From Aerococcus viridans (lineage in GTDB: Bacteria; Bacillota; Bacilli; Lactobacillales; Aerococcaceae): DNA of 64,000 bases. Of this stretch, positions 1 through 15,911 are shown piece after piece. A model generated the notes under the pieces. That model made no database searches. It was not told where the DNA came from and saw only the letters and a list, made by a program, of their open reading frames with translations. Each line of letters starts with the position of its first letter. Position 1 is the first letter of the stretch. The stretch covers positions 1,922,001 to 1,986,000 of the forward strand of contig NZ_NBTM02000001.1 of the NCBI RefSeq assembly GCF_002083135.2, written 5' to 3'. Made by a program: the position numbers and the translations under genes.

Positions 1-1285
1 GCTTTAATTCATTTCTTAATTCTGGAGTAGAAAATGGATATTTTTGATTACTTGTTAAAGAATCTAGCCAATTTAAGATATCTGCTTCATAAATTAAATT
101 ACCCTTATCATCAGTAGCAAAAAATTCATTCAGATCAAAAGCATAATCCACATTCGTCTCTTCATCTAAATCTGCGCCTTGTTTAATTTGTTCAACAATC
201 ATGTTCGACATTTGATATGTATACATATTTAAAGTAGGTAATTCTTCATATGGATTATGTTCATCAGTTTCGCTTTCATCCCAGTTCGCTTTAGCTTCTT
301 GTTCATCCATATAAGACCAGTTAAATATTTGATTGGGTTCAAATTTGTCACTAGCAATTTGTTTAAATGGTGTTCCTGAAAGATGCAATATGTAGTCCGT
401 TTGAATTCTATCTAAAGCAAACTCAGTTTTATTTGTATCTACAGCCTCATGAGCTTCATCAATGACTACTAAATCCCAAGGTAACTGTTTAACCCAACGC
501 AACTTCGGAATATTTCCTCCAAAAAATTCAGAACCTTTCAAATCTTGTAAACTTACAAAGGCAATTTGAGCTGGATTATCAGAGTCTATCACTTTGTCCA
601 AATAATCTTCGCGACTTAATATATCCCTATTTGAAATCGCAGGACTATCACTTACAAAATAGTAAGTATGTTCTTTATCATACTTAATAAATTTCTCGTA
701 ATCATCCACCCATGAATTTCCGACTGCTGGTCTATTTGTTAATATTAAAACATTTGAAAATTCCATTTCTTTAATCAAATCGTAAGTAGTTAAAGTTTTT
801 CCAAATCTTGGTTTAGCATTCCACAAAAACTCCCCTGACTCACGACTTTTGAAATATCCAGCAGTCATTTCAACAGCTTCTCTTTGTTCTTGTCTTAAAA
901 CGTAACTCTCAGATTGTATAGAATCTTCTAACTCATGAATGTCTTCTTTTAACATAAATGCAGAAAACATTCTCTTTGATTTACTTACATCATTCTCAAA
1001 ATCAAACCACTCAGTACCGCTCTCTCTAGGAATACCTTTACGAACCAAGTAAGCATGGAAATCATGATCATTGAAATAATAACCATCATTAAACCGTGCG
1101 ACATAGTCCCACAATTTTTCAGGAGTTATACCTGCCGTATGGGTTTGTTCACGAATACGTCTATCCACGTCTCTCTCTGTGTAACCAATTTTAAACCAGC
1201 CCTGTTTCTCCAGGTTGCTTGGTGTTCGATAGGCATATATTTTTGGAATAATACGTGTCTTGGTATTAATATTCGGTGTTTGCAT
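1..1285 (-). CDS. GIY-YIG/DEAD-like helicase restriction protein (C-terminus off window)
   Basis: Probably the restriction or translocation subunit of a restriction-modification system. I translated it directly from the complement: it starts at ATG 1285, one base after the methylase stop, with a GGAGATGG ribosome site. Residues about 15-48 form a GIY-YIG/T5orf172-like module (IYAYRTP ... GWFKIGYTER ... RRIREQ). A superfamily 2 helicase core follows, with a P-loop (NAKPRFGKT) and a DEAH box (VVIDEAHEA). About 428 residues are visible and the frame is still open at base 1. Pairing of such helicases with Eco57I-type methylases is known; DNA cleavage by the GIY-YIG part is inference. Confidence 0.8.
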   Translation of the reverse strand, partial: MQTPNINTKTRIIPKIYAYRTPSNLEKQGWFKIGYTERDVDRRIREQTHTAGITPEKLWDYVARFNDGYYFNDHDFHAYLVRKGIPRESGTEWFDFENDVSKSKRMFSAFMLKEDIHELEDSIQSESYVLRQEQREAVEMTAGYFKSRESGEFLWNAKPRFGKTLTTYDLIKEMEFSNVLILTNRPAVGNSWVDDYEKFIKYDKEHTYYFVSDSPAISNRDILSREDYLDKVIDSDNPAQIAFVSLQDLKGSEFFGGNIPKLRWVKQLPWDLVVIDEAHEAVDTNKTEFALDRIQTDYILHLSGTPFKQIASDKFEPNQIFNWSYMDEQEAKANWDESETDEHNPYEELPTLNMYTYQMSNMIVEQIKQGADLDEETNVDYAFDLNEFFATDDKGNLIYEADILNWLDSLTSNQKYPFSTPELRNELK

Positions 1286-1286
1286 A

Positions 1287-3203
1287 TTATTCCATCTCCT
1301 TAACAATGGTCTCAATGTAATTAATATCATCATTATCAAGATTATACTTTTTGTACAACTGACTATCTATATCAGAAATAGATCCCATCCAATCAATATC
1401 TGAATCTGATTGAAAGTTTTGAAGTGGTACATAGCTCCAAACATCTTTACGAGCATTATCAGGGGTAGCTTTTTTAACGCTTAACATTACTCTAGCAAAT
1501 TTACTTTTAATATATTTATTTAATGCTATAGCTTCATTTTCTGTGTCAAAATTCCCGAGAGTAATAAAGGTTTGAGTAGGTATCATATGTGGTTCGGCCA
1601 CAAAGGGTTCACTTAATGCCTCTCCGATAGCTCCTGTACCATTTGATTTAGCAACAAAGACTTTCCATTTTCCAATTGTTGGATGATCTTGAATATATTT
1701 TCTACGTATCCATTTAACTTTTCTTTTATGGTTTTGGCGACCAAGTATTCCAATAAAGTCCTTTAAATTCTTTGGATGTTCATCCAGAAATATATCAGAA
1801 AGTTTATCAAAAATATTTGATGTAATTGATAAGCGTTCAGATTTTTTAACCTTATTTTTCATCTCCGGGAAATCTTTATAAACCATATCTGACAGTCTAT
1901 AGCTACTACGATTATGATGAATTAAGTTGATAGATTTCTCCATTATTGATGATACTTTGCTAGTAATTTTCTCCAATTCTTTGCTGCGAATAAATACTTC
2001 AATGTGGCCAAATTCTTTCTCATTATCATAATATGTTATTGCCACTCCACCCTTTATATCAGTGTTTTTGAAAATATTCCCACTGTATTGATCAAAATAT
2101 AAAACTTTTAAATGTGGATTATTCAGCATTTCTTGATTCCAACTGCTTTTAGTTTGTCCGGCATCGGATAAAAATCTTGCTGGAGTAATTAAGAGAGCTT
2201 TATTTGAAATTTTATATGCTTCGTCCATAAAGTAAGGATAAATTGGAACATCTCTATTATTTCCTTCAGTTGTCATTTGGTAAGGAGGATTCCCTATTAC
2301 AACATCAAACTTCATTTCTGTGTCATTCCTTTCCGAGAGCAATTTGAATTCGATTGTCTTGTCTACTCCCCACAACTTAATATTAGCTAGTTTAGGTGTG
2401 ATATATTCTTCAGTTTCTATCTCTTCAAATAGATTAAGTTGAGTCCCACTTTCTTCAAGGCCCCCAACCGAATATGGTACTTCATATGTTAAGCCGTCCA
2501 TTTGAAATACATTCAGACTTATTATTTTAGTAATTTCTAATAGTATTTTCTCTTTTGGGAAAGCTCCGAACATATAAAAATAATTATCGATAAATGTTAA
2601 GATTAAATTTTCTCTAGCTAGTAGAAGTGAGTCTCCTTGATATTCATAACCATAACTGGCTTTATAGATTTCAACAGCTAGCTTCAGCCATTCTTCTTCT
2701 AATTCTATTTTTTTATTCAATTTTTTAAATTTTATATCTATGAATCCTGATCGGTCTTTTAAAGGTATTACTTCGCCTGTTTCCATATCATAGCGGTTTA
2801 CCATATATGGAGCTTCTCCACATGTAATTTCTAGCCATTTAGTTTGAATAAAATCAGCTAAAGGTAATTTTTCCATATCCTTAAGTGCAGCATTTACTTG
2901 TAATTTAATTACCCATGAGGGTGTGAACACTTCTGCTTTATTACGTTGACGTTCAAGTTGGAGATCTATATCTTTATCTACTCTTGGTCGAATGAAACCT
3001 TCGTACCAACCAGTAATTAGATTGATTTTAATCTCTTGATCATCTCGGAATGAATATCCATGATTAATATAGCTATCTGTTCCCCACTTTATATTCTTAC
3101 CAGTGGTATGATCCTTAAGCAGTAAACTTAATAGTGATTCATTTTCTCTTATATTAGTTGAATCACTTAAATCTGATAGCGACAAGCTATTATCTTCTCT
3201 CAA
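1287..3203 (-). CDS. Eco57I-type adenine DNA methyltransferase
   Basis: A 638-residue N6-adenine methyltransferase, the modification partner of the downstream helicase. The catalytic motif NPPY is at residues 305-308 (FDVVIGNPPY). A SAM-binding region of the variant form WLEITCGEAPY lies at about 123-133. The C-terminal 200 residues (around IGKWKVFVAKSNGTGA and the following 100) look like a TaqI/Eco57I-type target-recognition domain, so a separate specificity subunit may not be needed. The start overlaps the end of the upstream small gene by 4 bases, and the stop is one base from the helicase ATG, so the three genes form one operon. Family assignment is firm; the sequence recognised is unknown. 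Confidence 0.85.
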   Translation of the reverse strand: MREDNSLSLSDLSDSTNIRENESLLSLLLKDHTTGKNIKWGTDSYINHGYSFRDDQEIKINLITGWYEGFIRPRVDKDIDLQLERQRNKAEVFTPSWVIKLQVNAALKDMEKLPLADFIQTKWLEITCGEAPYMVNRYDMETGEVIPLKDRSGFIDIKFKKLNKKIELEEEWLKLAVEIYKASYGYEYQGDSLLLARENLILTFIDNYFYMFGAFPKEKILLEITKIISLNVFQMDGLTYEVPYSVGGLEESGTQLNLFEEIETEEYITPKLANIKLWGVDKTIEFKLLSERNDTEMKFDVVIGNPPYQMTTEGNNRDVPIYPYFMDEAYKISNKALLITPARFLSDAGQTKSSWNQEMLNNPHLKVLYFDQYSGNIFKNTDIKGGVAITYYDNEKEFGHIEVFIRSKELEKITSKVSSIMEKSINLIHHNRSSYRLSDMVYKDFPEMKNKVKKSERLSITSNIFDKLSDIFLDEHPKNLKDFIGILGRQNHKRKVKWIRRKYIQDHPTIGKWKVFVAKSNGTGAIGEALSEPFVAEPHMIPTQTFITLGNFDTENEAIALNKYIKSKFARVMLSVKKATPDNARKDVWSYVPLQNFQSDSDIDWMGSISDIDSQLYKKYNLDNDDINYIETIVKEME

Positions 3204-3457
3204 GAAGCCACCTCCTTAGCTTTTTGGTTAGTTATTATATTTTCTACTACTGTTAAACGATTTTTACCGCATTGTTGCTTAAGTATCGTAGTAAAATCAT
3301 CGTTTTTTATTATTTTACGTTGGTTATTTTTATAAATTATGATTATATTTTCTTCTAACTCTTCATCTGTTAGATTATCTACCCAATATTCATCAACTAT
3401 TTCATTAATAATAGCTGCAACTTCCCGTTGGGTACGGTAAAATTTCTTTATTTTCAC
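3200..3457 (-). CDS. Small protein of R-M operon (TIGR04540-like)
   Basis: An 85-residue charged protein that opens the R-M operon. The start is GTG at 3457 behind an AGAGGTG ribosome site; the stop overlaps the methylase start by 4 bases, implying translational coupling. The pattern of an N-terminal YRTQREVA, an acidic middle and a C-terminal FTTILKQQCGKNRL resembles the TIGR04540 family of about 80-residue Firmicutes proteins as I remember it; this needs a profile search. Its role is unknown. Position suggests a regulator or accessory factor of the R-M system. No signal peptide or membrane segment is visible. Confidence 0.7.
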   Translation of the reverse strand: MKIKKFYRTQREVAAIINEIVDEYWVDNLTDEELEENIIIIYKNNQRKIIKNDDFTTILKQQCGKNRLTVVENIITNQKAKEVAS

Positions 3458-3491
3458 AGAATCACCTCTGTCATATTTAATTCTTACTTTT

Positions 3492-3520
3492 ACTATACTT
3501 TAGATACGTTTAGTAATCCC
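3492..3520 (-). promoter_or_regulatory. Candidate R-M operon promoter, split by IS insertion
   Basis: On the minus strand TATAGT (3497-3492) is a plausible -10 box, 35 bases before the GTG start of the small protein. A -35 box with 17-bp spacing would fall at 3515-3520, exactly across the junction with the IS element that starts at 3519. The present hexamer is a poor match, so transcription may now start inside the IS. This is inference from spacing only. Confidence 0.35.
3512..3518. repeat. Left 7-bp direct repeat of the composite transposon
   Basis: AGTAATC directly abuts the outer end of IS copy 1. The identical 7 bases directly abut the outer end of IS copy 2 at 11017-11023. This is the pattern of a target-site duplication made when the entire 7.5-kb block inserted as one unit. 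Other repeat lengths do not match at these junctions. Confidence 0.75.
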
Positions 3521-5127
3521 TGAATAATTCATACCTCTAATTTCAGAGGCCAGTTTATTATGTTTCTGTTATATTTTGCAGTTTTTCTATTATATACATT
3601 GAGATATTTCAATTTTTTGATTCTATTCGTTGATTACTCGAGAAATTCCAGGATAACTTGAATTTTGGGCGCACTTCTCCCTGGGCATTGTTCATTTTTT
3701 TAAAAATGAATATTTATTAAATATACTGTCGAATCCCTTGGATTCGCCTGAATGTATTATAAAACTCGGCCTGATAAACGTGCGAACTTGAGAGCTTCAA
3801 ATACATTTGTCTAGCTGTACGGACGATTTTTCCTGCTACTTTGAATAACCGAAGTCGGATGGTATTCACTTGGAGCCCTTTCCAATTAGAATCAAAACAG
3901 CTTGTACGTAAGAAATTCACCAAATTATAAGCCAGTAGACTAATCATCATACGGGATTCGTTTGCTAGAAATCCTGGACTATCAGTTTTATCGAAAAAGA
4001 AACCGTTCTTGGCTTCTTTAATGTAATTTTCCATGGTGCCGCGTTTATTGTAAGTTTCAAACACGCTTTTCGCTGAAATGTTTTCAGAAAGATTGGTCAC
4101 AATAAAGGCATGGCTAAAAAGTAATTCACCGACTTCTCGTGTCGAACGAATGCAAACACGACGAGGCTTTGTCCATGAAGAAGCTTGATAGGAAACTGAG
4201 TGATAGTAAACTTCTTTTTCATCCCAAGGATGATTATTATCATAGAACACAAATTCTTCTGCCAAGCGGTATAAGTTTCGATTGGCTTTGAGTCGAATGA
4301 CGTAGTAATTGTCATGTATATCGCATAGATCGTAGACAGCCGGCGTTGCAAATCCACTATCTCCACGTACTAGGATATCAGTCGTTGGAACCGTTTGGTT
4401 ATAGTGTTCTAACAGTGGTTTAAGAAATGCTTTAACCCCATTGGAAGTATATTGATTACCTGAACGGAGTTTAGCTTTTAAGAAGTCACCGGTCAGCCCA
4501 TCAAATGCGACTAATGGATGATAGCCATTCGTTCCATAATGAGCGTTGTAAGCTGTTTGTTCTTGGTTACCGAAGGTATCCGAATGCGTAGAATCCAAGT
4601 CGATAATCATGTTTGTATCATTACGCACTAGACGGGCTTTGTCGATTAATGTTTGATTGAGCTCCTGAAGTGTGAGGATTGTATCTTGTCCCACTCGATT
4701 AAAAAATCGTGAGATAGACGACTGAGAAGCTAATGGCTCGTCACTTGAAAGAGTCTGTAAAACTGGGTCATGTTGCAGAATATTTGTCGCAGAATCTGTA
4801 TCATAACCTGCTATAATCTGCAGAATTAATTGCTTCAACAGTTTATGATTTGTATGTGTCCAATATTTTCGATCGTCTTGAAAGGTAACTATTTTTTCAG
4901 CGAGTTGAGTAAATTGGAAAACATCCATCATTTCATCTATAAGAACTAAGCCAGAATCACTGGATAAACGACCACCTGTATGAGAGACATGTAAATCATT
5001 ATTGAATTTTGCAGCAGTTTCTTGTAAAGTAACCATTGAGAGAACTCCTTTCTATTGGTTGTTTGTCGTGAATTAACCATATCAGAAAGGGGTTCTTTTT
5101 TCATCACCTAATGGGTGATGGACAAGA
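3519..5127 (-). mobile_element. IS1380-family element, copy 1, right end deleted
   Basis: This copy matches copy 2 (9344-10952) over 1609 bases with two substitutions that I found. The outer end begins CCTGAATAATTCATA, the terminal inverted repeat. The opposite end, 64 bases in copy 2 including its inverted repeat, is missing: homology stops after GATGGACAAGA at 5127, where a cytochrome-b5 gene fragment begins. The element should therefore be unable to move alone, but its left end can pair with the right end of copy 2 to move the whole block. The IS1380 family includes ISEcp1, known for mobilising resistance genes. Confidence 0.9.
3717..5036 (-). CDS. IS1380-family DDE transposase (copy 1)
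   Basis: A 439-residue transposase that cuts and joins the IS ends. DDE signature regions are visible: IDLDST (first Asp), VRGDSGF (second Asp), and the YNKRGTMENYIKEAK block (Glu). It differs from copy 2 by two residues, Ser rather than Phe in RLSSDSGL and Asp rather than Asn in AVYDLCD. The frame is intact, with an AGGAG-like site before ATG 5036 (GAAAGGAGTTCTCTC). Although its own element lacks an inverted repeat, the protein could act in trans on copy 2 and on the composite. Confidence 0.93.
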   Translation of the reverse strand: MVTLQETAAKFNNDLHVSHTGGRLSSDSGLVLIDEMMDVFQFTQLAEKIVTFQDDRKYWTHTNHKLLKQLILQIIAGYDTDSATNILQHDPVLQTLSSDEPLASQSSISRFFNRVGQDTILTLQELNQTLIDKARLVRNDTNMIIDLDSTHSDTFGNQEQTAYNAHYGTNGYHPLVAFDGLTGDFLKAKLRSGNQYTSNGVKAFLKPLLEHYNQTVPTTDILVRGDSGFATPAVYDLCDIHDNYYVIRLKANRNLYRLAEEFVFYDNNHPWDEKEVYYHSVSYQASSWTKPRRVCIRSTREVGELLFSHAFIVTNLSENISAKSVFETYNKRGTMENYIKEAKNGFFFDKTDSPGFLANESRMMISLLAYNLVNFLRTSCFDSNWKGLQVNTIRLRLFKVAGKIVRTARQMYLKLSSSHVYQAEFYNTFRRIQGIRQYI

Positions 5128-5323
5128 TGGAAGTCAAGCTTACGTAGCAGTAGGCGACGTTGTTTACGATGTTACAGATGCAGAAGGATGGGAAGACGGT
5201 GTCCACGAAGGTGGAATCGAAGCTGGAAATGTTTATGCTGAAGAAGACTTCGAAGAATCTCCACATGGTACAGAAGTATTAGATAACGTACCTATTGTAG
5301 GTACAGTGGATCGTGGAGAATAA
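5111..5323 (+). pseudogene. Cytochrome b5-like heme-binding domain fragment fused to IS end
   Basis: The reading frame from 5118 onward (DGQDGSQAYVAVGDVVYDVT ... SPHGTEVLDNVPIVGT) matches the middle and C-terminal part of the bacterial cytochrome-b5-like heme/steroid-binding domain (COG4892 type). The N-terminal half, including the usual LEEL...F segment, is gone. The first codons come from the IS end, so the 70-residue open frame is a chimera created by the deletion junction. The frame stays open to a TAA, suggesting recent damage. A functional product is unlikely. Confidence 0.7.
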
Positions 5324-5375
5324 CAAATAAAATATTGTTAGAACTGGGACAAAAATTTTCAGTTTCTGAATAAAC

Positions 5376-5418
5376 AAAGAGGCGTTCAAAATCTAAATGA
5401 TTTTGTGACGCCTCTTTT
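5376..5418. terminator. Bidirectional terminator between mph and b5 fragment
   Basis: Stem AAAGAGGCGT pairs with ACGCCTCTTT, extended by CAAAAT/ATTTTG, with A and T tracts on either side. It can end the mph transcript (minus) and the b5 remnant (plus). The stretch 5419-5541 holds no recognisable gene. Confidence 0.8.
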
Positions 5419-5541
5419 ATTTTATCGATTCATTGGAACCTCGTAAGAACAAACTAAAGTAGCTGTTGTCTCAGCCACTTTTTCAGTTTCTTGTCTAATC
5501 GTTATACTCGGTGATTTGTCTACTTTTCTATTTCAAAATCT

Positions 5542-6438
5542 TTATTGCTCATGACTAAACATTTGTTTAGCTATTTGATCGTACTCTTCTAAACCAGATG
5601 TCATCGCAAATTCTGCAATTGTAATCCCTTGTGTAGAAAGAAGCTCCATAATATGCTGTCTCATCTTCGGCCATGTATAACCGCCCGCTTTATTATAAGC
5701 CTCAATTAACTCTTCCAGTTGATTTTCACTGAATAACATGTAAAATGCTGTGAAATCATTGGATACATCGGCAACTTTTGCTTCAGTCCAGTCAATTATT
5801 CCATTAATTTTAAACTGTTCATCAACCAGTGTATGTCCAGGGAACAGGTCCCCATGAATAAAGCCTGTTTCTTTTGGCCACATTTCTTCATCATCAATCC
5901 ACTTCTGCCATCTTTCCCACAAAGACTTATTCACTTTATATCGATTATTTACTGTATCCATCCGTTCTTTCATGGATGTTTGAAGTTCTGCTGCAGACTG
6001 AACAGGAAGTCCTGCTGCTTTGGCTTTTTCTTTAGAAGCGCCATGTAAAGTAGCAAGCGCCTTTCCTAAGCTTTGAATATAATTCTCTGGAACCTTTTTA
6101 ATATCGAAGACCCAATCCTGTTCTTGTGTTTCTATATCCGTAGTGACTGCTGGTTTTCCCTCTAATTTCTTGTAGGCAATCAATTCTTCTGTAAAAATTT
6201 CCCAATTTGGAACTTGAAAATCACTATCCAACTCATTTACAAGATCAAGAATACTTTTTTCAATTTGTACTTTTTCAAATACATCTTTTCTTCTAGGAAT
6301 ACGAAGTACCCATTCTGTACCATTTTCATCTGTTCCAAATACAACTTGGAAGTCTAATCCCATATTAATAAATTCTAGTGACGTTTCATCGATTTGTAAA
6401 TGATGATGTCTAGCTAATTTCAAAACATTATTTTCCAT
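5542..6438 (-). CDS. mph: Macrolide 2'-phosphotransferase (Mph family)
   Basis: A cytoplasmic kinase that phosphorylates the desosamine 2'-hydroxyl of 14- and 15-membered macrolides using nucleoside triphosphate. Protein-kinase-like (APH) fold. Visible features, numbered from the longer open frame: GLDFQVVFGTDENGTEWVLR near residue 30, catalytic HGD at 197-199, and the metal-binding Asp in IIDWTEAK at 219. The layout is close to Mph(C)/Mph(B) from memory; the exact class cannot be set here. The frame opens at 6444, but AGGAG lies only 3 bases before that ATG and 9 before the ATG at 6438, so 6438 is preferred. It lies 79 bases after the msr gene and is probably co-transcribed. Resistance is inferred, not shown. 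Confidence 0.88.
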   Translation of the reverse strand: MENNVLKLARHHHLQIDETSLEFINMGLDFQVVFGTDENGTEWVLRIPRRKDVFEKVQIEKSILDLVNELDSDFQVPNWEIFTEELIAYKKLEGKPAVTTDIETQEQDWVFDIKKVPENYIQSLGKALATLHGASKEKAKAAGLPVQSAAELQTSMKERMDTVNNRYKVNKSLWERWQKWIDDEEMWPKETGFIHGDLFPGHTLVDEQFKINGIIDWTEAKVADVSNDFTAFYMLFSENQLEELIEAYNKAGGYTWPKMRQHIMELLSTQGITIAEFAMTSGLEEYDQIAKQMFSHEQ

Positions 6439-6487
6439 ATCCATTCACTCCTATTCAGATTTTTTCCTTTTAACACCAGACGCTTAA

Positions 6488-6515
6488 AAATAGCCCCTCA
6501 TTCAAAATAAGGGCA
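6488..6515 (-). terminator. Weak hairpin between msr and mph
   Basis: On the minus strand GCCC-13 nt-GGGGC is followed by TATTTTT. It may partly stop transcripts leaving the msr gene and so lower mph expression. The stem is short, so the call is tentative. Confidence 0.35.
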
Positions 6516-6523
6516 TCATGAGC

Positions 6524-7996
6524 TTAGTACTCAACCAAGTTTAATCGTTGATCTCTTATCTCCCATATCTGTTCGGCCACTCGTTCCATAAAATATTTAT
6601 CGTGTGAGGTAAACAGAATCGTACCTTTGTAACTTTTCATCAATAACTCCAAGGCTTCAATTGTTTGTACGTCAATAAAATTCGTCGGTTCATCTAAGAT
6701 AAGGACATTACTTGGATCTGTAAATAACTTCGCAATGACTAACCGAGTAACTTCTCCACCACTCAAATCGACCACTGATTTCTTTACAACTTCTGTTTGA
6801 TCAAAACCTAAGTTATTTAAAATGCTTCGAATAACCGGTTCCTCCAAATGTGAATCTTGTTTTAAATACTCTATCATTGTTTTGTCTTGTGATAGTTGGT
6901 AAGCCTTTTGTTTGTAAACGGAAAAGACGATTTTATTCGATAAGGTAATACCTTCCCCATCATTTACAATATACTCTAACAACGTTGATTTCCCAGACCC
7001 ATTTGGACCAGTTATACCAATTCGTTTTCCTAATGGCAGTTGAAAACTCGCTTCGTCAAATAATACCTTAGAGCCCCTTTGAATCGTAACTTTGTGTCCC
7101 ATAATCGGGAAGTCATTATGCATCTCTAAATTTTTAGGTTGTGGAAAGTTGATGACTTTTTCTTCCGCAACATTTTGAACCTCATCCAGTTGTTCTGCTC
7201 TTTTTTGTATGGCTTTCGCAGCTTTATGGGCTGCTTTTTGAACCGTATCTTTTTGTTTGGAAGAAGCCAGTCGATCAGGTTTTACAGCTTTGTTTTTCTG
7301 TTTAGTACTTACGCTGGCCATTTTTTCAGCCTGCGCTTGTTTCTCTTTCGCCGCCTGTTCTAAATGTTGTTTTTCTTTTGTGAATTTTTCAAACGCATTT
7401 TGTTGTTCAATTAATTCTTGTTTTTTTAATGCTTGATAAGCAGAATAGTTACCTGGATAAACGGTCACTTTCCCGTTATTCACTTCCCAAATTGTGTCCA
7501 CGACTTGATCTAAAAAGTAACGATCATGGCTAACTACAATCAGCGTACCATAATAGTATTTTAACTGATCCACTAGAAATTGAATGCCATCGGTATCTAA
7601 ATGTGTAGTAGGCTCATCCATTAATAAGCCAAATTGGTACGTCGAAAAGTACTCTGCGAGGCGCAGCCGTGTTTGTTGCCCGCCACTGTAATTTTCAACT
7701 TCATGTTCTGGGAGATCTAAGCGCGATAAATACTCGGGGTCAATCTTCTCATAATCCGGCTTCATTCCTTCTTGAATTTGTTCATAATATTCAAAATAAA
7801 TCGTACGATGAACTGTACCAATATCAGGTTTTAACTTTCCACAAATAAGATTAAGCAAAGCACTCTTACCTTCTCCATTTCCACCAACGATTCCTATTTT
7901 TTCATTTTCGTAGACCTTCAATTCATCAATCGCTAAAATATCTCGACTCATAAAACTTTTTTCAACATTCTTTAATTCTAATACTAATTTATTCAT
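6524..7996 (-). CDS. msr: Msr-type ABC-F ribosomal protection protein
   Basis: A 490-residue soluble ABC-F ATPase that displaces macrolides (often streptogramin B as well) from the ribosome exit tunnel. Two nucleotide-binding domains: Walker A GGNGEGKS (38-45), signature YSGGQ (103-107) and Walker B LLMDEPT (about 124-130); then GPNGSGKS (330-337), LSGGE (411-415) and VLILDEPT (431-438). The long linker, about 190-290, is rich in K, Q and A with SSKQKDTVQKAAHK, very like Msr(A). There are no membrane segments, as usual for ABC-F. The ribosome site is AGGAGTGA before ATG 7996. The upstream leader peptide supports macrolide induction. The neighbouring mph mirrors the msr(A)-mph(C) pairing of staphylococci. 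Confidence 0.9.
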   Translation of the reverse strand: MNKLVLELKNVEKSFMSRDILAIDELKVYENEKIGIVGGNGEGKSALLNLICGKLKPDIGTVHRTIYFEYYEQIQEGMKPDYEKIDPEYLSRLDLPEHEVENYSGGQQTRLRLAEYFSTYQFGLLMDEPTTHLDTDGIQFLVDQLKYYYGTLIVVSHDRYFLDQVVDTIWEVNNGKVTVYPGNYSAYQALKKQELIEQQNAFEKFTKEKQHLEQAAKEKQAQAEKMASVSTKQKNKAVKPDRLASSKQKDTVQKAAHKAAKAIQKRAEQLDEVQNVAEEKVINFPQPKNLEMHNDFPIMGHKVTIQRGSKVLFDEASFQLPLGKRIGITGPNGSGKSTLLEYIVNDGEGITLSNKIVFSVYKQKAYQLSQDKTMIEYLKQDSHLEEPVIRSILNNLGFDQTEVVKKSVVDLSGGEVTRLVIAKLFTDPSNVLILDEPTNFIDVQTIEALELLMKSYKGTILFTSHDKYFMERVAEQIWEIRDQRLNLVEY

Positions 7997-8113
7997 GCTT
8001 TCTCACTCCTGTATATTTTATACCTGTTATAGCAACTTCATTTAGGCAATAAAAAATACAGGTCAAAGTCTTATCGGCTTTAATCTGCATAAATGATCTT
8101 ATTATGAGCGTAT

Positions 8114-8150
8114 GAAAAGACAGTTACCCCTCTATGGGTCAAACAACTGT
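8114..8150 (-). terminator. Terminator hairpin 2 in msr leader
   Basis: Minus-strand stem ACAGTT...AACTGT with inner ACCC/GGGT, followed by CTTTTC. It lies between the leader peptide and the msr start, where ABC-F attenuators place a conditional terminator. Confidence 0.6.
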
Positions 8151-8191
8151 ACGTTTAATGAAAAGCCCAATACAGAAAACTTAAGCATGAC

Positions 8192-8219
8192 AAAAAGGCC
8201 AATCTAATCGATAAGATTG
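8192..8219 (-). terminator. Terminator hairpin 1 in msr leader
   Basis: Minus-strand CAATCT...AGATTG with inner A-T pairs, then GCCTTTTTG, 20-25 bases after the leader peptide stop. This spacing fits an attenuator whose folding depends on a ribosome stalled on the leader. Confidence 0.6.
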
Positions 8220-8240
8220 ATCTGCTTCTTATTGCCATCC

Positions 8241-8267
8241 TTAACGTAATCTCATTGAGTTAATCAT
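8241..8267 (-). CDS. Macrolide-responsive leader peptide MINSMRLR
   Basis: An 8-codon open frame (ATG 8267 to TAA 8241) with an AGAGGAG ribosome site 8-9 bases upstream, in the transcribed leader of the msr gene. The end SMRLR matches the staphylococcal msr(A) leader MTASMRLK/R and carries the R-L-R (+x+) motif known to stall ribosomes when a macrolide is bound. Stalling would be expected to disfavour the terminators just downstream. The peptide was read directly; the regulatory role is inferred from the known msr(A)/erm systems. Confidence 0.8.
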   Translation of the reverse strand: MINSMRLR

Positions 8268-8300
8268 TTTTTCAACGCTCCTCTGTTGTAATGTATTCAT

Positions 8301-8329
8301 AATATATCACAACTGTTTTCGTTTCTCAA
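8301..8329 (-). promoter_or_regulatory. Promoter of the msr-mph unit
   Basis: Minus-strand TTGAGA (8329-8324), a 17-base spacer and TATATT (8306-8301). It lies 34 bases ahead of the leader peptide ATG, with about 300 bases of leader before the msr start. Confidence 0.7.
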
Positions 8330-8390
8330 GAAATTCTTAAGAAAAAGTCTATTTCTACACCATTAAATATTATTCTTCGTCTTTATTTTT

Positions 8391-8621
8391 TTATTGTTTT
8401 TCTTTCTTTTCTACTTCTTTTTTATTGGCCCCTTCAAATGCAGCGCCTATGGTAATTCCAATCGCCACAAATGCCATATTATCTAATGCAATACCTAGAG
8501 CGACGCCCAAGGTTATACCGATTGCCATTCCAGCACCTGTATATTTATAGCCTTTCTTTTTGTCTTTATCTTTTTTGTCATCATAAAGCTCTTTAGAAAG
8601 TCTGTTATGTTTGTATCCAGT
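8391..8621 (-). pseudogene. Glycine-rich membrane protein fragment lacking a start
   Basis: An open minus-strand frame ending TAA at 8391. It reads KKKGYKYTGAG then a glycine/alanine-rich membrane-like stretch (AIGITLGVALGIAL, VAIGITIGAAFEGA) and a charged tail NKKEVEKKEKQ. No ATG, GTG or TTG precedes the lysine-rich part: the frame runs back into the end of the HAD gene and meets a TAG at 8622-8624. I read it as the 3' part of a small glycine-zipper-like membrane protein fused to foreign DNA. A shortened product from the internal ATG in GAGMAIG cannot be excluded. Confidence 0.45.
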
Positions 8622-9228
8622 CTATAATATCTATTGGTTGTTTGAAAATATAATCTGCTGAGTCAAATTTTTCTGTTGTTTTTGCACCCCATAATGCAAG
8701 TCCGAATTTGATTCCTGCTGCTTTCGCACTTTGCATATCGTAGATTGAATCACCTATATATATTGTTTTGCTTGGTGGAGCATTTAGCCGCTCCATGCAT
8801 GACAGCAACGGTTCAGGGTGTGGTTTGTGTTTCGTTGTATCATCCGCAGTAATCATCTCTTCAAAATACGAACTAAGCCCTAACGGATCAAAGGTATCAA
8901 CCATTCCCTGTTTAGTTTTAGATGTAACAATGCCTAATTTGATTTTTCTTTTTCCTAAATGGTCAATGACAGTTTCTAAATCTGGAAATAATGTTGCATC
9001 CTTTGAATACTCTGTTTCCAATTGAGCCCATTTTGAATGAACGCGATCAACCTCTGGGATATTCAAGCGATTCAAAGTCTCTTTGCCCGGAATACCTAAA
9101 GCAAAGCGTAAATTCCCTAGTTTATACTGCCGTCCTTCTTCTTTTAGAGTTTGTTGCAGAGAATTTAAGACTGCTTTTTCCGTGTCTAAAATAGTTCCAT
9201 CCACATCGAAAATGATATAGTTTTACAT
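8605..9228 (-). pseudogene. HAD-family phosphatase with stop at codon 2
   Basis: The natural start appears to be ATG 9228, after an AAGGGG-like site, but the next codon is TAA (9225-9223). After that the frame reads NYIIFDVDGTILDTE, a perfect HAD motif I, and continues about 200 residues with a motif II candidate (IVTSKT) and motif IV (YIGDSIYDM). The first downstream start, GTG 9204, sits inside motif I and would remove the nucleophilic Asp of DVDGT. The gene is therefore probably inactive, or the TAA is a sequencing error. Family: phosphoglycolate-phosphatase-like hydrolases. IS copy 2 lies about 115 bases upstream. Confidence 0.75.
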
Positions 9229-9343
9229 CTCAAGCCCCTTGTCTATTCTTTATTTTTAACAGTAAACATCTTTTTGGAGTCGCTGCATCGTATGCCATGT
9301 AGACATTTTGTTTATAGTATTTCGGTTAAGTTTAATAGTCCGA

Positions 9344-11016
9344 CCTGAATAATTCATACCTCTAATTTCAGAGGCCAGTTTATTATGTTTCTGTTATATT
9401 TTGCAGTTTTTCTATTATATACATTGAGATATTTCAATTTTTTGATTCTATTCGTTGATTACTCGAGAAATTCCAGGATAACTTGAATTTTGGGCGCACT
9501 TCTCCCTGGGCATTGTTCATTTTTTTAAAAATGAATATTTATTAAATATACTGTCGAATCCCTTGGATTCGCCTGAATGTATTATAAAACTCGGCCTGAT
9601 AAACGTGCGAACTTGAGAGCTTCAAATACATTTGTCTAGCTGTACGGACGATTTTTCCTGCTACTTTGAATAACCGAAGTCGGATGGTATTCACTTGGAG
9701 CCCTTTCCAATTAGAATCAAAACAGCTTGTACGTAAGAAATTCACCAAATTATAAGCCAGTAGACTAATCATCATACGGGATTCGTTTGCTAGAAATCCT
9801 GGACTATCAGTTTTATCGAAAAAGAAACCGTTCTTGGCTTCTTTAATGTAATTTTCCATGGTGCCGCGTTTATTGTAAGTTTCAAACACGCTTTTCGCTG
9901 AAATGTTTTCAGAAAGATTGGTCACAATAAAGGCATGGCTAAAAAGTAATTCACCGACTTCTCGTGTCGAACGAATGCAAACACGACGAGGCTTTGTCCA
10001 TGAAGAAGCTTGATAGGAAACTGAGTGATAGTAAACTTCTTTTTCATCCCAAGGATGATTATTATCATAGAACACAAATTCTTCTGCCAAGCGGTATAAG
10101 TTTCGATTGGCTTTGAGTCGAATGACGTAGTAATTGTCATGTATATCGCATAGATTGTAGACAGCCGGCGTTGCAAATCCACTATCTCCACGTACTAGGA
10201 TATCAGTCGTTGGAACCGTTTGGTTATAGTGTTCTAACAGTGGTTTAAGAAATGCTTTAACCCCATTGGAAGTATATTGATTACCTGAACGGAGTTTAGC
10301 TTTTAAGAAGTCACCGGTCAGCCCATCAAATGCGACTAATGGATGATAGCCATTCGTTCCATAATGAGCGTTGTAAGCTGTTTGTTCTTGGTTACCGAAG
10401 GTATCCGAATGCGTAGAATCCAAGTCGATAATCATGTTTGTATCATTACGCACTAGACGGGCTTTGTCGATTAATGTTTGATTGAGCTCCTGAAGTGTGA
10501 GGATTGTATCTTGTCCCACTCGATTAAAAAATCGTGAGATAGACGACTGAGAAGCTAATGGCTCGTCACTTGAAAGAGTCTGTAAAACTGGGTCATGTTG
10601 CAGAATATTTGTCGCAGAATCTGTATCATAACCTGCTATAATCTGCAGAATTAATTGCTTCAACAGTTTATGATTTGTATGTGTCCAATATTTTCGATCG
10701 TCTTGAAAGGTAACTATTTTTTCAGCGAGTTGAGTAAATTGGAAAACATCCATCATTTCATCTATAAGAACTAAGCCAAAATCACTGGATAAACGACCAC
10801 CTGTATGAGAGACATGTAAATCATTATTGAATTTTGCAGCAGTTTCTTGTAAAGTAACCATTGAGAGAACTCCTTTCTATTGGTTGTTTGTCGTGAATTA
10901 ACCATATCAGAAAGGGGTTCTTTTTTCATCACCTAATGGGTGATGGACAAGACGGAGTTAAAGTTTGTTAAATCAACATTAGTTAGCGTTAAAAGAAAAA
11001 CTATGAATTATTCAGG
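9344..11016 (-). mobile_element. IS1380-family element, copy 2, complete
   Basis: 1673 bp bounded by 15-bp inverted repeats: CCTGAATAATTCATA at 9344 and its complement ending at 11016. It holds one transposase gene with 60-200 bases of flank. Length, the CCT termini and the transposase all fit the IS1380 family. The inner flank (CCGA before 9344) does not match the outer flank (AGTA after 11016), so this copy has no short duplication of its own; the outer 7 bases instead match those outside copy 1. It is likely competent for transposition. Confidence 0.92.
9542..10861 (-). CDS. IS1380-family DDE transposase (copy 2)
   Basis: A 439-residue transposase, identical to copy 1 except Phe for Ser in RLSSDFGL and Asn for Asp in AVYNLCD. 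Neither change touches the DDE blocks IDLDST, VRGDSGF or TMENYIKEAK. Because this element keeps both inverted repeats, it is the better candidate for the active enzyme of the composite. Near identity of the two copies points to recent duplication or gene conversion. Confidence 0.93.
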   Translation of the reverse strand: MVTLQETAAKFNNDLHVSHTGGRLSSDFGLVLIDEMMDVFQFTQLAEKIVTFQDDRKYWTHTNHKLLKQLILQIIAGYDTDSATNILQHDPVLQTLSSDEPLASQSSISRFFNRVGQDTILTLQELNQTLIDKARLVRNDTNMIIDLDSTHSDTFGNQEQTAYNAHYGTNGYHPLVAFDGLTGDFLKAKLRSGNQYTSNGVKAFLKPLLEHYNQTVPTTDILVRGDSGFATPAVYNLCDIHDNYYVIRLKANRNLYRLAEEFVFYDNNHPWDEKEVYYHSVSYQASSWTKPRRVCIRSTREVGELLFSHAFIVTNLSENISAKSVFETYNKRGTMENYIKEAKNGFFFDKTDSPGFLANESRMMISLLAYNLVNFLRTSCFDSNWKGLQVNTIRLRLFKVAGKIVRTARQMYLKLSSSHVYQAEFYNTFRRIQGIRQYI

Positions 11017-11023
11017 AGTAATC
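11017..11023. repeat. Right 7-bp direct repeat of the composite transposon
   Basis: AGTAATC directly after the terminal inverted repeat of IS copy 2, identical to 3512-3518 outside copy 1. Together they mark 3519-11016 as one inserted unit. Confidence 0.75.
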
Positions 11024-11042
11024 TATTAATTTTTAAGAATGT

Positions 11043-11086
11043 AAAAAAAGCTTTAAAGAAGACAGTGTCTTTCTTCAAAGCTTTTT
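11043..11086. terminator. Strong bidirectional terminator after the avs-like gene
   Basis: A long stem AAAAAGCTTTAAAGAAGAC with GTCTTTCTTCAAAGCTTTTT, A tract on one side and T tract on the other. It ends the minus-strand transcript of the STAND gene and insulates it from the transposon. The bases 11087-11295 hold no gene that I can see. Confidence 0.85.
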
Positions 11087-11295
11087 AGCTTTACATCTTG
11101 ATGTGACAGTCATTTAGAGCAGAGTTTAAAGCGATAGACATATCAATGTCCGTTAAAACATCTGTAAATCGTTGTCTAATACACCAGTCATTATGAGTGA
11201 TAAATCACCATAAAATTAACAAAACTTATTGTGGGTTTTGGATATAAGTTATGTTATTGTGATAACTACTATGAAATGATTTGTAGTATTCGTTT

Positions 11296-14200
11296 TTAGA
11301 CTTTGTTATTAAATCTATTTGACTCACCAGGAGTTTCTAATCTCATTTTACTAGCAATATCAAATTTCTCATTAAGATACGCATAACCACTCCACTGACT
11401 CCATATTTGCATTCTATCTGATGTTCTAAAGCTTTTTTCTCCAATTAAGGTCCAAAACACTCTGTATTTCTGCTCTTCTAAGAATTTATGAAGATAAGTT
11501 TCTTTTATAATCAATCCATAATCTTCATCTATTAATTTTGTATCAAATGCCACTAGCTCATCTTCTACATAGAAAAATCCATCAATCGTTTTTTGCTCTA
11601 ACTTTAAAATATTTATAATTTCTGAATTCGGTATTTTAAAAGAAATTGAACTCTCCTCAAGTGTACCATCGTATTGAGACTCATATAAAAAATCATTACT
11701 AGCTGGCAAGACATAATAACCAATTTCCTTTACCGGACGTTTTACTTTTTTATATTTTACTTCTTCATTATTCTCGATACCTAAAATAAAATCTTCCAAA
11801 TTTGATGAACTATAATCCCGTACTTCTTCTTCATAGTACTCTCCTGTCTCAATCTCTATAGCAGACCATTCATTTTTTAATACATTATTTTTTAATGCAG
11901 AACTCCAATAATATTCTCTATTAAAAAATTCATATGAACGGCTACCCTCAGGATAGTTTCTTCCATAGAAGTTCCTAGTCTCTATATCTTCCAAACACCT
12001 TTCATAATCTTCTTCTTTAACAAAATATGCCTGGATAATGTTATAAATTTCTTGTCGCTTTCCATCGTATTTTCGTAATATATTTTCATTTTTTTCAATT
12101 TCTTTTATGTGGTTTAAAATTATCCAATTATTTCCTCGAGAATCTTTTATTTTAATTTCATTTTCAATATCATCAAATAGTGTGGAAGTCTTATTTACCC
12201 AGTCTATTATATCTGTTTCTTCTCGATCAAAATCGTCTAAAAATTCTTTCGAATATAACTCGTCTTTAGGGTTGAATTCGATTAGACTTTTATCAGGTTT
12301 AAATCTATTATTGAGTGTTGGATCAAAATCTCTAACATATGGACTCCATGGACCGCTGTAATCTTCTGAAATATCGTAATCGTTTTCTACTAAATAATTG
12401 TCGGCTACCTTAGCTAAAAGATTATATAAAGCAATCCATTGATATTTTTTACCAATGCGTTCAACTTTCCGTGTATCATGTCTTTCAGTATAATAATTAT
12501 TAATGTCGTGTGGAAATAGCCTGCCATCAAAACCTATAACATTAAAAATGTAATCCATAGCATAATAATAGCCATTTTCATTATCGAAGTTTTTAAATTG
12601 ATTTAGTGCTGAATCAAACACGTATCTTCCAAAATCTCCATAAATTCCTGGGCCACTATTCTCAGTATTCATAGAAGAGATAATTGCATCTATAGAAGAA
12701 TCATTTTTTCCGAAAGAATCATACTCCACTCTTTCCATTTCAGGAATATCAGAAGAATTATAAGGCGGTCTGATTTTTTCTCTTGAAAAGTCCAACTCTT
12801 CGGGATATTCATATAAATATAGCTCTATAATCAATCGTGCATAATCCCTTAATAAGATATCTGGGTACACTTCATCTGCCTGAAAGATTGTTTTATATAC
12901 GTAATTTACTAACTCTTTATAAGTTTCAGGAGTTCTGTCCTTCGTACGCACTAATACTCCAAAAACTACACCATATAATCTATGAACTACATATGGGTCG
13001 TTAGTATTTTCAAACTTTTTTAGTAGGTCTAAACATAATTGATAATTATCCTTAAGAATTACAATCATAGCCTTTGAGCAACGATCTCTTAACTTTCTAT
13101 TACTAGATGTCAAAGTCCAGCTAAACAATATAAGCATTAGTCTAATTTGCTCATTTTTTAGAGAGTGTGTATTAACTTTCGCAGACTCAAAAGAAGAAAT
13201 AATCTGACCTAGACTAGAATCACTACTTATGCCATTTATAAAATTTGTCCATAGTGAGTCTCGAGTAACCATAGACATTTGAGAAAGATGGCTATCTAAA
13301 AAATATGCATTTGTTGAATTTTTTAGCTTAATACTGTTATCTATAAGCATATTATAGAAAGTATCGATTGAAACTTCGTAGTTATTAAGTATCTTCCTTA
13401 ATATTTCAACACTCGTATTTATATTTTTTCTGATAGTAAAAGATTCTATGAAACGATCTGCTAAATTGTTAGCCAAATGTATATCTTCTTCGTAAATAAA
13501 ATCTAATACAGGTATAATTATCTCTCTTCCGTAACTTTCATATCCCATTTCTGAAGTAAACAATAAGGGATCTACCATGGAATAGTTAAGATTATCATCA
13601 TCAATTAATACATCTAAAATATTATATTCAAGTTCATCTAAGTTAGTGCTCTTTTTGAATATTTCACTTCCAAGTAAATAATCTCGTATTAAGTTATAAG
13701 AGAATGTGTAGTATATTTCGTCGGAATTTTCAAATTTATTTATTAATCCATTTCTTACTAGTGAGCCAATATAATCATGCTTTTTAAATACTAATCCGTT
13801 GTTTTCCCAAAATGGTATCGAAAAAGTTTCTTCTTTAGAAACAGTCCATCCATTTCCTGCTAGCATTTTAGATACAAATTGAGTAAGAAATTCTTTTAAT
13901 AAATTAAAGTCTTCATCAAATTCAATCTCTTCTCTAGATGATTGATCAATTTTTTCTAGCGTTTTATTAAATATCTCTTGAATGTCCATATCATATCCTG
14001 CAAAGTTTTCACAAAATAATGTTAAAAATAAAGGATTCGACATCTGTTCATTAAAATACAATGTTGGCGAGAAGGTTATATTGTAATAGTCTAGAAAAAT
14101 ATTTATCTGTTCATAATCAAATCTATCAAGTCCTTCATGGTTGAGTACAGATATTTTTTCTTTTGATATTAATTCTTCTGCATAATCTGATATTAATTTC

Positions 14201-15498
14201 TCTTCGAATCCATGTCTAAATGAAAAAGCAAATTTTACATAATTATAATTATCTAAAATTTGAGAGATTTCTTCAATAGTATTCTTCCAAATAATGTTGT
14301 CATTAGTTTCATTTATTCCATCAATAAAAACAACAATCGGCTTATTTATTAATTTTCCAAGAGCATCTAAACTATCTAATAAGTTATTTATATCTATATT
14401 AGGTATATTAAGTAGGTCGATTAATTGATTCTTAACAGGGTTATTTTTTATGAATGAATACCCTGGTAGTAAAATTGTTGGCCTGTTTTCATAAATTAAA
14501 TTATTAGCGGAGATGGCGAAAGTATGTGATTTGCCAACTCCTGCTTTCCCTTTTAACAATAGAATTTTATTATCTATTAGTTTCTCTTCAAAATTTGAAA
14601 GCAATAAATTATCTAGTAAGCTCTTTATTTTTTCTAAGTCCTGCCTCTTAGAAAGCAATTTATCCCTTTCATCGTTTTCAAGTTCTGCAGAATATATTTT
14701 ATCATTTAGTTCATTTAAAGAATTTCCAAGTCGTAAAAAAGCATCTGCATATTTATTTTTAATATATTCATTTAGTTTGTAATAATCATTTGTATTTTCT
14801 ATCTCACCTGACTTAAGAATGTCTTCGGCAATGTTATCTAATAATTCTCGCCCCCTTTGTTTATAATAGGATTTAATTTCCTTCAGATAATTTGAAACAC
14901 GAGTAGGCAATAATTCGTCGGATAATTCACTTTGACAAAATAAGCCAATAGATTTTTCTATATCAGTAGTTGCATTAAATTTCTTATTATAGCGATACGA
15001 TAGCGAATTCAAATTCAATTGTACTTGTTGTTGAAACCATTCAATATCGAACTTATGTTGATTAAAAAATAATGCACTAGCATGTTTTGATGTCGCTGCT
15101 TGCTCTAGCAATTCTGTGTTGGTTATTGCAATACACTCTATAGATGCTTCTTCTAAAATCTTAACGCACTCTAAATAACTTGAATTATTAGTACTTACAT
15201 CTTCATTACTAAAAAGATATACTCTATCCAGTTTACCTTCGTAATTAGCTCTAATGATTTGAAAACTTTTTTTAATTTGAGAATAGTCTATTCCTTTTGA
15301 AAAATATTTAGCCTGAAAACTTATTATTAATCCATCTTTTCCAGTAACTGGGTCAACTTCAATTCCTTTATGGTTTGGATTAGATCGCAAAATAGTACCT
15401 TCTACACAATAGTTTTCTTTGAACAACAGTCTGCTTAAACTCTCAAAAGAGCTTGTTTTATGGTTATTATTCACGTTAAAATGATCCCAAGTAATCAT
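11296..15498 (-). CDS. Avs-like STAND NTPase with N-terminal Mrr-like nuclease
   Basis: A 1400-residue probable antiphage sensor. Residues 1-150 look like a PD-(D/E)XK (Mrr-like) nuclease: FESLSRLLF helix, GIEVDP (E47, D49) and the FQAKY block (Q62, K64). A coiled linker (about 200-310) leads to a STAND/NACHT ATPase with Walker A GKAGVGKS (317-324), Walker B VVFIDGINE (389-397) and sensor FSFRHGFE (about 425). The C-terminal 750 residues are helical and repeat-like, with GDFGRYVF and ERIGKKYQW (1013-1021), which I associate with large Avs-type proteins. In known Avs proteins this part binds a phage protein and triggers the nuclease. The gene stands alone with its own terminator and AT-rich codon use. 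Subtype and target are unknown. Confidence 0.75.
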   Translation of the reverse strand: MITWDHFNVNNNHKTSSFESLSRLLFKENYCVEGTILRSNPNHKGIEVDPVTGKDGLIISFQAKYFSKGIDYSQIKKSFQIIRANYEGKLDRVYLFSNEDVSTNNSSYLECVKILEEASIECIAITNTELLEQAATSKHASALFFNQHKFDIEWFQQQVQLNLNSLSYRYNKKFNATTDIEKSIGLFCQSELSDELLPTRVSNYLKEIKSYYKQRGRELLDNIAEDILKSGEIENTNDYYKLNEYIKNKYADAFLRLGNSLNELNDKIYSAELENDERDKLLSKRQDLEKIKSLLDNLLLSNFEEKLIDNKILLLKGKAGVGKSHTFAISANNLIYENRPTILLPGYSFIKNNPVKNQLIDLLNIPNIDINNLLDSLDALGKLINKPIVVFIDGINETNDNIIWKNTIEEISQILDNYNYVKFAFSFRHGFEEKLISDYAEELISKEKISVLNHEGLDRFDYEQINIFLDYYNITFSPTLYFNEQMSNPLFLTLFCENFAGYDMDIQEIFNKTLEKIDQSSREEIEFDEDFNLLKEFLTQFVSKMLAGNGWTVSKEETFSIPFWENNGLVFKKHDYIGSLVRNGLINKFENSDEIYYTFSYNLIRDYLLGSEIFKKSTNLDELEYNILDVLIDDDNLNYSMVDPLLFTSEMGYESYGREIIIPVLDFIYEEDIHLANNLADRFIESFTIRKNINTSVEILRKILNNYEVSIDTFYNMLIDNSIKLKNSTNAYFLDSHLSQMSMVTRDSLWTNFINGISSDSSLGQIISSFESAKVNTHSLKNEQIRLMLILFSWTLTSSNRKLRDRCSKAMIVILKDNYQLCLDLLKKFENTNDPYVVHRLYGVVFGVLVRTKDRTPETYKELVNYVYKTIFQADEVYPDILLRDYARLIIELYLYEYPEELDFSREKIRPPYNSSDIPEMERVEYDSFGKNDSSIDAIISSMNTENSGPGIYGDFGRYVFDSALNQFKNFDNENGYYYAMDYIFNVIGFDGRLFPHDINNYYTERHDTRKVERIGKKYQWIALYNLLAKVADNYLVENDYDISEDYSGPWSPYVRDFDPTLNNRFKPDKSLIEFNPKDELYSKEFLDDFDREETDIIDWVNKTSTLFDDIENEIKIKDSRGNNWIILNHIKEIEKNENILRKYDGKRQEIYNIIQAYFVKEEDYERCLEDIETRNFYGRNYPEGSRSYEFFNREYYWSSALKNNVLKNEWSAIEIETGEYYEEEVRDYSSSNLEDFILGIENNEEVKYKKVKRPVKEIGYYVLPASNDFLYESQYDGTLEESSISFKIPNSEIINILKLEQKTIDGFFYVEDELVAFDTKLIDEDYGLIIKETYLHKFLEEQKYRVFWTLIGEKSFRTSDRMQIWSQWSGYAYLNEKFDIASKMRLETPGESNRFNNKV

Positions 15499-15507
15499 TT
15501 ATTTTCT

Positions 15508-15540
15508 CCCTTCTTTAGAAATACAATTAAATTAATTATA
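15508..15540 (-). promoter_or_regulatory. -10 box and ribosome site of the avs-like gene
   Basis: Minus-strand TATAAT (15540-15535) with no good -35 box, then AGAAGGGAG about 10 bases before ATG 15498. A strong -10 with a weak -35 suggests low or activated expression. Confidence 0.5.
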
Positions 15541-15566
15541 GCATTCTTAAGCATTAACGTATAAAA

Positions 15567-15597
15567 GAGAAAACCCCAATAGCTTTCGCTATTGAGG
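15567..15597 (-). terminator. Terminator upstream of the avs-like gene
   Basis: Minus-strand CCTCAATAGC-GAAA-GCTATTGGGG followed by TTTTCTC. It stops transcripts arriving from the ssrA side, so the STAND gene needs its own promoter. Confidence 0.8.
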
Positions 15598-15797
15598 CTC
15601 TTGTGAAAATCTATTTCACTGAGTCATGTTATAAAGCAAAACAGATACATATATAACAATAAAATCTACTTCCGTAGCAATTGTTATAGATTATTTTATA
15701 AAGGGTTTTGAACTAAAAATTATCTACCCATAAATTTATTGCCTAAATTACTACTGTTAAAGATACAGAATCAAAAACCATTACCATTTTCCGAGTG

Positions 15798-15900: not shown

Positions 15901-15911
15901 GTTGAATAATA

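Follow-up and report, generated by a model that had tools for sequence, protein, structure and literature searches.

Among the mobile units built on insertion sequences (ISs) of the IS1380 family, those of ISEcp1 consist of a single IS and another far end. In the available excerpts of their description, they mobilize DNA by one end and leave short duplications (PMC9325909), and the excerpts on TMos, from the alphaproteobacterial genus Paracoccus, likewise describe one IS1380-family copy that mobilizes adjacent DNA (PMC3281130). Two IS1380-family elements in the same orientation form the ends of Tn8026, an 8,185-bp unit of Enterococcus that carries poxtA and, according to the accessible part of the report, is bounded by outer 6-bp repeats, two different ones of which occur in one isolate (PMC13417996). 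Tn7409, on the Arcobacter plasmid pCNAC48, combines optrA with two copies of the IS1380-family element ISEnca1, one truncated and the other complete, and the accessible part of its description contains neither a target duplication nor an empty site (PMC9535334). Here, a related arrangement is described from Aerococcus viridans (assembly GCF_002083135.2), within a stretch of 64,000 nucleotides, hereafter the window, that comprises positions 1922001–1986000 of a 2.0-Mb single-contig genome. Its positions 3519–11016, a block of 7,498 bp with AGTAATC on both outer sides, hold an Msr-type ABC-F gene and an Mph-type macrolide phosphotransferase gene between two copies of a single IS1380-family element in direct orientation, and the block is most probably a class I (composite) transposon, half-disabled, that moved once as a unit. 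It is a further example of an already published type of element and not an unprecedented one: a preliminary description, made from the sequence alone, had taken IS1380 elements to be no standard vehicle for msr–mph in this group, but Tn8026 and Tn7409 are precedents for IS1380 composites with ribosome-protection genes.

The likeness to Tn8026, as far as its published excerpts go, extends to a composite of about 8 kb, IS1380-family ends in the same orientation, an ABC-F gene, and short outer direct repeats, and the published inverted repeats of ISEfa26 begin with CCTGAATAATTCATA, the same 15 bases as in the window IS. The ends of Tn8026 are, however, ISEfa26 and IS1678, its cargo is poxtA, and its repeats are 6 bp, whereas the window has one IS at both ends, one copy of it end-less, with msr plus mph and 7 bp; the block has neither the ISEfa26 and IS1678 ends nor the poxtA cargo, and is set apart on the description of those ISs. 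With Tn7409, it shares an ABC-F gene set between two copies of one IS1380-family IS, of which one is truncated and one complete, but the excerpts on Tn7409 give other inverted-repeat sequences (TATACCTAGATTCTACGT) and the cargo is optrA. TMos differs in having a single IS copy only, and in its alphaproteobacterial host. In the open-licence literature searched, as far as its texts were accessible, no report of an IS1380-family transposon with msr and mph together was found.

The features that delimit the block are listed below by window position; because the transposase is encoded on the minus strand, the high-coordinate end of each copy is its left terminal repeat (IRL) and the low-coordinate end its right terminal repeat (IRR).

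3512..3518, no strand: left target-site duplication AGTAATC, a single copy of which stands in the empty sites of genomes G056 and G057
3519..5131, minus strand: truncated IS1380-family copy that keeps IRR (3519–3533) and the transposase, has lost its last 60 bp with IRL, and runs into a b5-like gene fragment
3717..5036, minus strand: transposase of the truncated copy, 439 amino acids (aa), NF033539 401.7 bits (cutoff 180), PF13701 498 bits
9344..11016, minus strand: complete IS1380-family element, 1673 bp, with IRR (9344–9358) and IRL (11002–11016)
9542..10861, minus strand: transposase of the complete copy, 439 aa, NF033539 399.7 bits (cutoff 180)
11017..11023, no strand: right target-site duplication AGTAATC, from the sequence as read and the empty sites

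The outer 15-bp terminal repeats read CCTGAATAATTCATA (3519–3533) and TATGAATTATTCAGG (11002–11016), and the AGTAATC copies lie directly outside them. On the inner side of the right copy, the bases left of 9344 (GTCCGA) differ from this heptamer, and the locus thus has the two marks of a composite transposon, namely, two copies of one IS, the left one truncated, around non-IS genes, and a duplication outside the outermost ends that is absent at the inner ends. Identity over 7 bp at the two outer positions has a chance probability of about 1e-4 at the local base composition, and among non-cognate left and right flank pairs taken from related elements, 17 of 1122 match over at least 5 bp.

The nature of the repeat is settled by genomes that carry the uninterrupted site. 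The Avs2 protein of the right flank is present in three of 76 genomes of the family, the window's own, G057 (96% identity), and G056 (91%), and the examination for an empty site covered the latter two, leaving aside the 73 family genomes without an Avs2 gene. Both G056 and G057, which belong to another genus, carry the site with a single AGTAATC (sequences ATACGTATAGTAATCTAATAATTT and ATACGTATAGTAATCTATTAATTT, respectively). In G056, window positions 2026–3518 align to 10099–8602 of locus L157 and positions 11017–15673 to 8608–3938; in G057, positions 2956–3518 align to 8723–8162 of locus L156 and positions 11017–15673 to 8168–3511. The alignments thus reach the boundary from both sides and overlap by exactly the 7 bp of AGTAATC, and the sites hold neither IS copy nor any passenger gene. 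Given this single copy, the block is an insertion and the repeat a real target duplication, of 7 bp or of 6 bp plus one carried base that matches by chance, and the boundaries of the block are fixed to the base. The possibility that two ISs inserted separately on either side of a resident msr–mph pair, their outer 7-bp match being fortuitous, would accommodate the three positions at which the copies differ, but G056 and G057 lack both the genes and the IS copies and their alignments run through one AGTAATC; this scenario is refuted by these sites and its probability is negligible, and a chance AGTAATC match is ruled out with it. The preliminary description had placed AGTAATC at both outermost ends with an unmatched inner flank, had proposed that the whole 7.5-kb block inserted once as a unit, and had suggested a search for the uninterrupted site in related genomes; its coordinates prove exact, and the joined flanks of the two genomes support the single insertion. 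Within the genus, the left flank is matched in seven of 15 genomes including the window's own, and since the other six (63–87%) show no match past query position 2850 of 3518, none of them reaches the insertion point.

The two IS copies are full-length IS1380-type in their transposases, the DDE_Tnp_1_4 domain (PF13701) spanning residues 9–435 of 439 in the left-copy protein tested; both frames are open, and the two proteins differ at residues 28 and 236. The complete right copy has perfect terminal repeats (15/15 bp), and the left copy, with one end only, corresponds to IS positions 1–1613 of 1673, the end by the transposase start being lost. The copies are identical at 1610 of 1613 positions (99.8%), directly oriented, and divergent beyond. 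Thus, the near-identity and common orientation first described for them stand, and their being taken as a pair of like ends does not: owing to the loss of IRL from the left copy, they are not equivalent, and only the outermost end pair, the right-copy IRL and the left-copy IRR, brackets the passenger. At the break point, the IS reads GATGGACAAGACGGA and the fused sequence GATGGACAAGATGGA, and a deletion between short similar stretches likely removed the left IRL.

In the mechanism proposed, the left copy would have become joined to a cytochrome-b5-like gene at a short sequence common to both, losing its inner terminal repeat in the process, and without IRL it should be unable to leave alone. 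The right-copy IRL and left-copy IRR would then enclose the HAD gene, msr, mph, and the b5 fragment, and a transposase that bound these two outer ends would have moved everything between them in one event into the spot between a methyltransferase cluster and the Avs2 gene. Capture in the manner of ISEcp1, with the complete right IS acting alone, the far end serving as an alternative right repeat, and the left copy being incidental, fits the geometry, as the passenger lies beyond the IRR of the complete IS, and ISEcp1 belongs to the same IS family. The far end, however, is a true IRR that matches at 15/15 bases and is backed by 1.6 kb of IS, and therefore no weak alternative site is needed; such capture is very unlikely. 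By the same feature, the block departs from an ISEcp1 unit as defined by a single IS and an alternative right repeat, since in the window the second IS copy supplies the true terminal repeat. A half-disabled composite transposon is the most economical reading because of the exact 7-bp duplication with its single copy in two empty sites, because the outer repeats have the right polarity and IRL is missing from the left copy, because the outer flanks of other units match and one msr segment stands at two sites (L075 and L136, below), and because the published parallel, Tn8026, shows two different 6-bp repeats in one isolate as far as its report is accessible.

Related passenger-bearing units were sought among pairs of terminal repeats spanning 2–9.5 kb with at most one mismatch per repeat. 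The outer flanks match over at least 5 bp in six of the 10 pairs considered (the window, L075, L136, L116, L112, and L120), as against the 17 of 1122 non-cognate pairs given above; the four unmatched pairs comprise two in L081, one in L083, and one in L119. The five units besides the window, with outer-flank matches of 5 or 6 bp, are as follows.

L075, genome G034, 4,715 bp: an IS, a 289-aa gene, an msr relative, and a bare repeat; outer match TAATA
L136, genome G183, 2,998 bp: a 161-bp miniature element and the msr segment as in L075; outer match ATATAG
L116, genome G010, 2,813 bp; outer match ATCTAT
L112, genome G014, 3,849 bp; a run of T at the flanks, uninformative
L120, genome G034, 7,403 bp: far end a 194-bp remnant of the IRL end, 99.5% identical to the IS; outer match ATAAG

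L075 and L136 share a 2,725-bp msr segment at 99.6% identity at different sites with different duplications (TAATA and ATATAG), and their hosts, G034 and G183, are listed under two separate families. Both units close at the far side with a bare terminal repeat, and L120 with the 194-bp remnant. In five of the six matching units, the exception being L112, no duplication flanks the inner IS or miniature element by itself, and L112, L116, and L120 have their cargo on the side of the IS that bears IRL, unlike the window and L075. This pattern suggests that the transposases of this IS group can act on the outermost repeats, whatever lies between those and the inner ends. The short far ends also bear on an entry in two steps, an option that the preliminary description had also named as a circular unit recombining into a resident IS, and by which a lone complete IS would first have settled at AGTAATC, and a circle with the truncated IS and the passenger would then have integrated by homologous recombination over the 1.6 kb of IS, giving the same end product. 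The 99.8% identity and direct orientation of the copies are favorable to such a course, with the reverse loop-out also possible, and so is G006, a genome of the same genus with two 86-bp IS ends 100% identical to the window IS, both cut by contig ends, and no passenger match in its 93% complete draft, from which the window IS probably travels without cargo too. Two-step entry requires, however, two events and a circle that lacks evidence, and the outer flanks of L075, L136, and L120 match despite a very short far end that leaves little for recombination between IS copies; it is accordingly unlikely, in favor of a single transposition of the half-disabled composite.

A duplication of 7 bp is long yet close to the IS1380 range. 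The survey in the loci fetched took in 28 single elements, ISs or miniature elements, that possess both terminal repeats; L125 and L128, whose ends are irregular or imperfect, were excluded along with every single-repeat locus. The loci fetched represent part of the repeat matches, many contig-end copies in G005, G021, G050, and G057 not having been fetched. Duplications of 5 bp were found in nine (one of them, L107, also matching over 8 bp with one mismatch), of 6 bp in six, and of 7 bp in none. Published lengths, in the accessible parts of the sources, are 6 bp for Tn8026 (PMC13417996), 5 bp, AT-rich and outside the unit, for ISEcp1 (PMC9325909), and 5 bp for IS1247. The first impression that 7 bp is long for the family is thus borne out.

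Several points weigh against a single transposition of a composite with this duplication. The 7 bp exceed every other exact duplication counted in the IS group, a 6-bp duplication plus one chance-matching carried base would look identical, and 13 of the 28 single elements have no detectable duplication at all. The three differences in 1613 positions between the copies are compatible with one-step and two-step models alike. A match of the outer flanks was part of what drew attention to some of the related units, the listed contamination of G034 is 9%, and an empty site was not found for the G183 unit and two G034 units, for which one flank each was searched and the matches were diverged and ended short of the junction. 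In addition, a second copy of the passenger was not found in its own genome, and no donor was seen among the best three of 42 candidates, which were the ones scored; the genome sample is without a second strain of the same species.

It is possible, though a little short of probable, that the composite transposons of this IS1380 clade, from lactic-acid-type bacteria, evolve in steps while their outer ends go on cooperating: one IS copy loses its inner end (window) and is then cut back further, leaving a remnant of 194 bp in L120, one of about 105 bp in L112, and no more than a terminal repeat in L075, and the other copy can in turn be reduced to a 161-bp miniature element (L136). If true, such a series would explain the origin of single-IS units of the ISEcp1 type and make the clade a repeated carrier of ABC-F ribosome-protection genes, and it is a more interesting lead than the block alone. 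The block itself is a record of divergent msr and mph genes on a mobile carrier, and alongside Tn8026 (poxtA), Tn7409 (optrA), and the G034 and G183 units, it suggests that ABC-F ribosome-protection genes repeatedly travel on IS1380-family elements; surveys that seek a complete IS on each side could miss units with one shortened copy.

The genes between the ISs, an HAD-type hydrolase open reading frame (ORF), the Msr-type gene with a conserved leader, and the Mph-type gene, are all on the minus strand and are accompanied by the b5-like fragment.

5117..5323, plus strand: cytochrome-b5-like gene, C-terminal fragment only, joined to the truncated IS at a short stretch that the two share (GATGGACAAGA)
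5542..6444, minus strand: macrolide 2'-phosphotransferase-like gene (Mph), 300 aa, best NCBIfam model Mph(B) at 372.5 bits
6524..7996, minus strand: Msr-type ABC-F ribosome-protection-like gene, 490 aa, NF000168 656.3 bits
7997..8262, minus strand: leader upstream of the Msr-type gene, possibly regulatory, 77% mean column identity over five homologous loci, two of them nearly identical (G034 and G183)
8605..9204, minus strand: HAD-family hydrolase ORF with an internal GTG start, PF13419 148 bits

The profile scores uphold the gene calls made at the outset, IS1380-family transposases and Msr- and Mph-type proteins, with some distance from the curated classes. The Mph-type protein misses the Mph(B) score (372.5 versus a cutoff of 615), its relation to macrolide phosphotransferases itself being clear; its best match in the Protein Data Bank is 5igu, MphB. 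It is 81% identical to a gene product in G183 and 54.8% identical at the amino acid level to that of the best-ranked plasmid record, all 4000 matching records being below 60%. The Msr-type protein misses the Msr family score (656.3 versus 680) and passes the general ABC-F protection model (499.2 versus 380). Its best-ranked plasmid record is 53.5% identical, at least 5000 records match, those listed being all below 60%, and the nearest among the relatives compared are in G240 (76.8%) and Atopostipes suicloacalis (L045, 75.6%). From family membership, Msr would protect the ribosome and Mph would phosphorylate macrolides. The leader, for which Rfam gave no match at gathering scores (its one hit being a transfer-messenger RNA, tmRNA), is a possible drug-responsive attenuator. 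The HAD gene may be shortened, opening from the internal GTG; in region 8605–9235, read by eye, an upstream in-frame ATG is followed immediately by a stop codon. The fragment 5117–5323 gave no Pfam match, and its cytochrome-b5-like name is an assumption, ours and that of the preliminary description; 11 relatives (L145–L155) of 134–144 aa are 53–56% identical, the 10 compared have the N-terminal part that is absent from the fragment, and no intact gene closer than these 53–56% relatives was found among them.

Because G240 and Atopostipes carry the msr relative in another neighborhood, with no mph among the ORFs listed, the msr–mph pair appears assembled and not ancestral. A donor locus for the passenger was not found, the msr and mph relatives in the loci examined standing apart with other neighbors. 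The preliminary description had also proposed looking for the block elsewhere, which yielded only its single occurrence in its own genome: the passenger has no megablast match in the plasmid records, partial matches of 65–85% in G005, G010, and G014 alone among the 14 other genomes of the genus, and, across the family's other 75 genomes, nothing beyond short matches and diverged relatives. Similarly, no full-length close match to the IS was found in the plasmid records compared; its best long matches (at least 80% of its length, 32 records) lie near 66% nucleotide identity, with shorter pieces higher. Annotated copies of ISSsu5, also of the IS1380 family, are these best long matches, differing from the window IS in having 66.4% nucleotide identity over 81% of it. 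The plasmid records compared thus offer only divergent counterparts of the IS, Msr, and Mph.

Other members of the IS group were observed alongside these units. The same genome holds a second IS1380-type unit (G000:C1:759898-762336, L117), with a 297-aa gene, which we take to be DegV-like, in common with L112 of G014 and L116 of G010, the three being 99.6–99.8% identical over about 2.65 kb. In L117, a truncated transposase is fused in frame within a 957-aa ORF, the fusion partner being presumably type I restriction-like. A miniature element of 350–360 bp, with IS-related ends (positions 1–260 joined to 1568–1673, 68–77% identity), is present at G000:C1:525890-526249 (L079) and in L078, L102, and L083; as its flanks are similar in the four genomes, it was probably inherited inside a larger element. 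Identical solo terminal repeats with the same flanks stand in three genomes, at 837 of L092 (G023), 818 of L093 (G024), and 943 of L094 (G055), of which only 25 bp match the window IS.

The right neighbor of the block is an Avs2-like defense gene (PADLOC Avs2 651 bits; NF041813 554 bits, below the cutoff of 1000). It forms part of a defense island at window positions 1–15673, with an Eco57I-like methyltransferase and a TIGR04540 protein, that is 84–97% identical in nucleotides to the islands L156 and L157 of the other genus. A search of 104 kb of the own genome for an att-like duplication of the tmRNA end returned a single match, the tmRNA gene itself; in all three genomes, tmRNA is found about 0.2 to 4 kb away from the island (window 15909–16273, L180 711–1074, L181 576–938). 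Similar ORFs of 471 and 474 aa, presumably ISL3-type transposases, are found at window 18077–19492 and L178 11409–12833.

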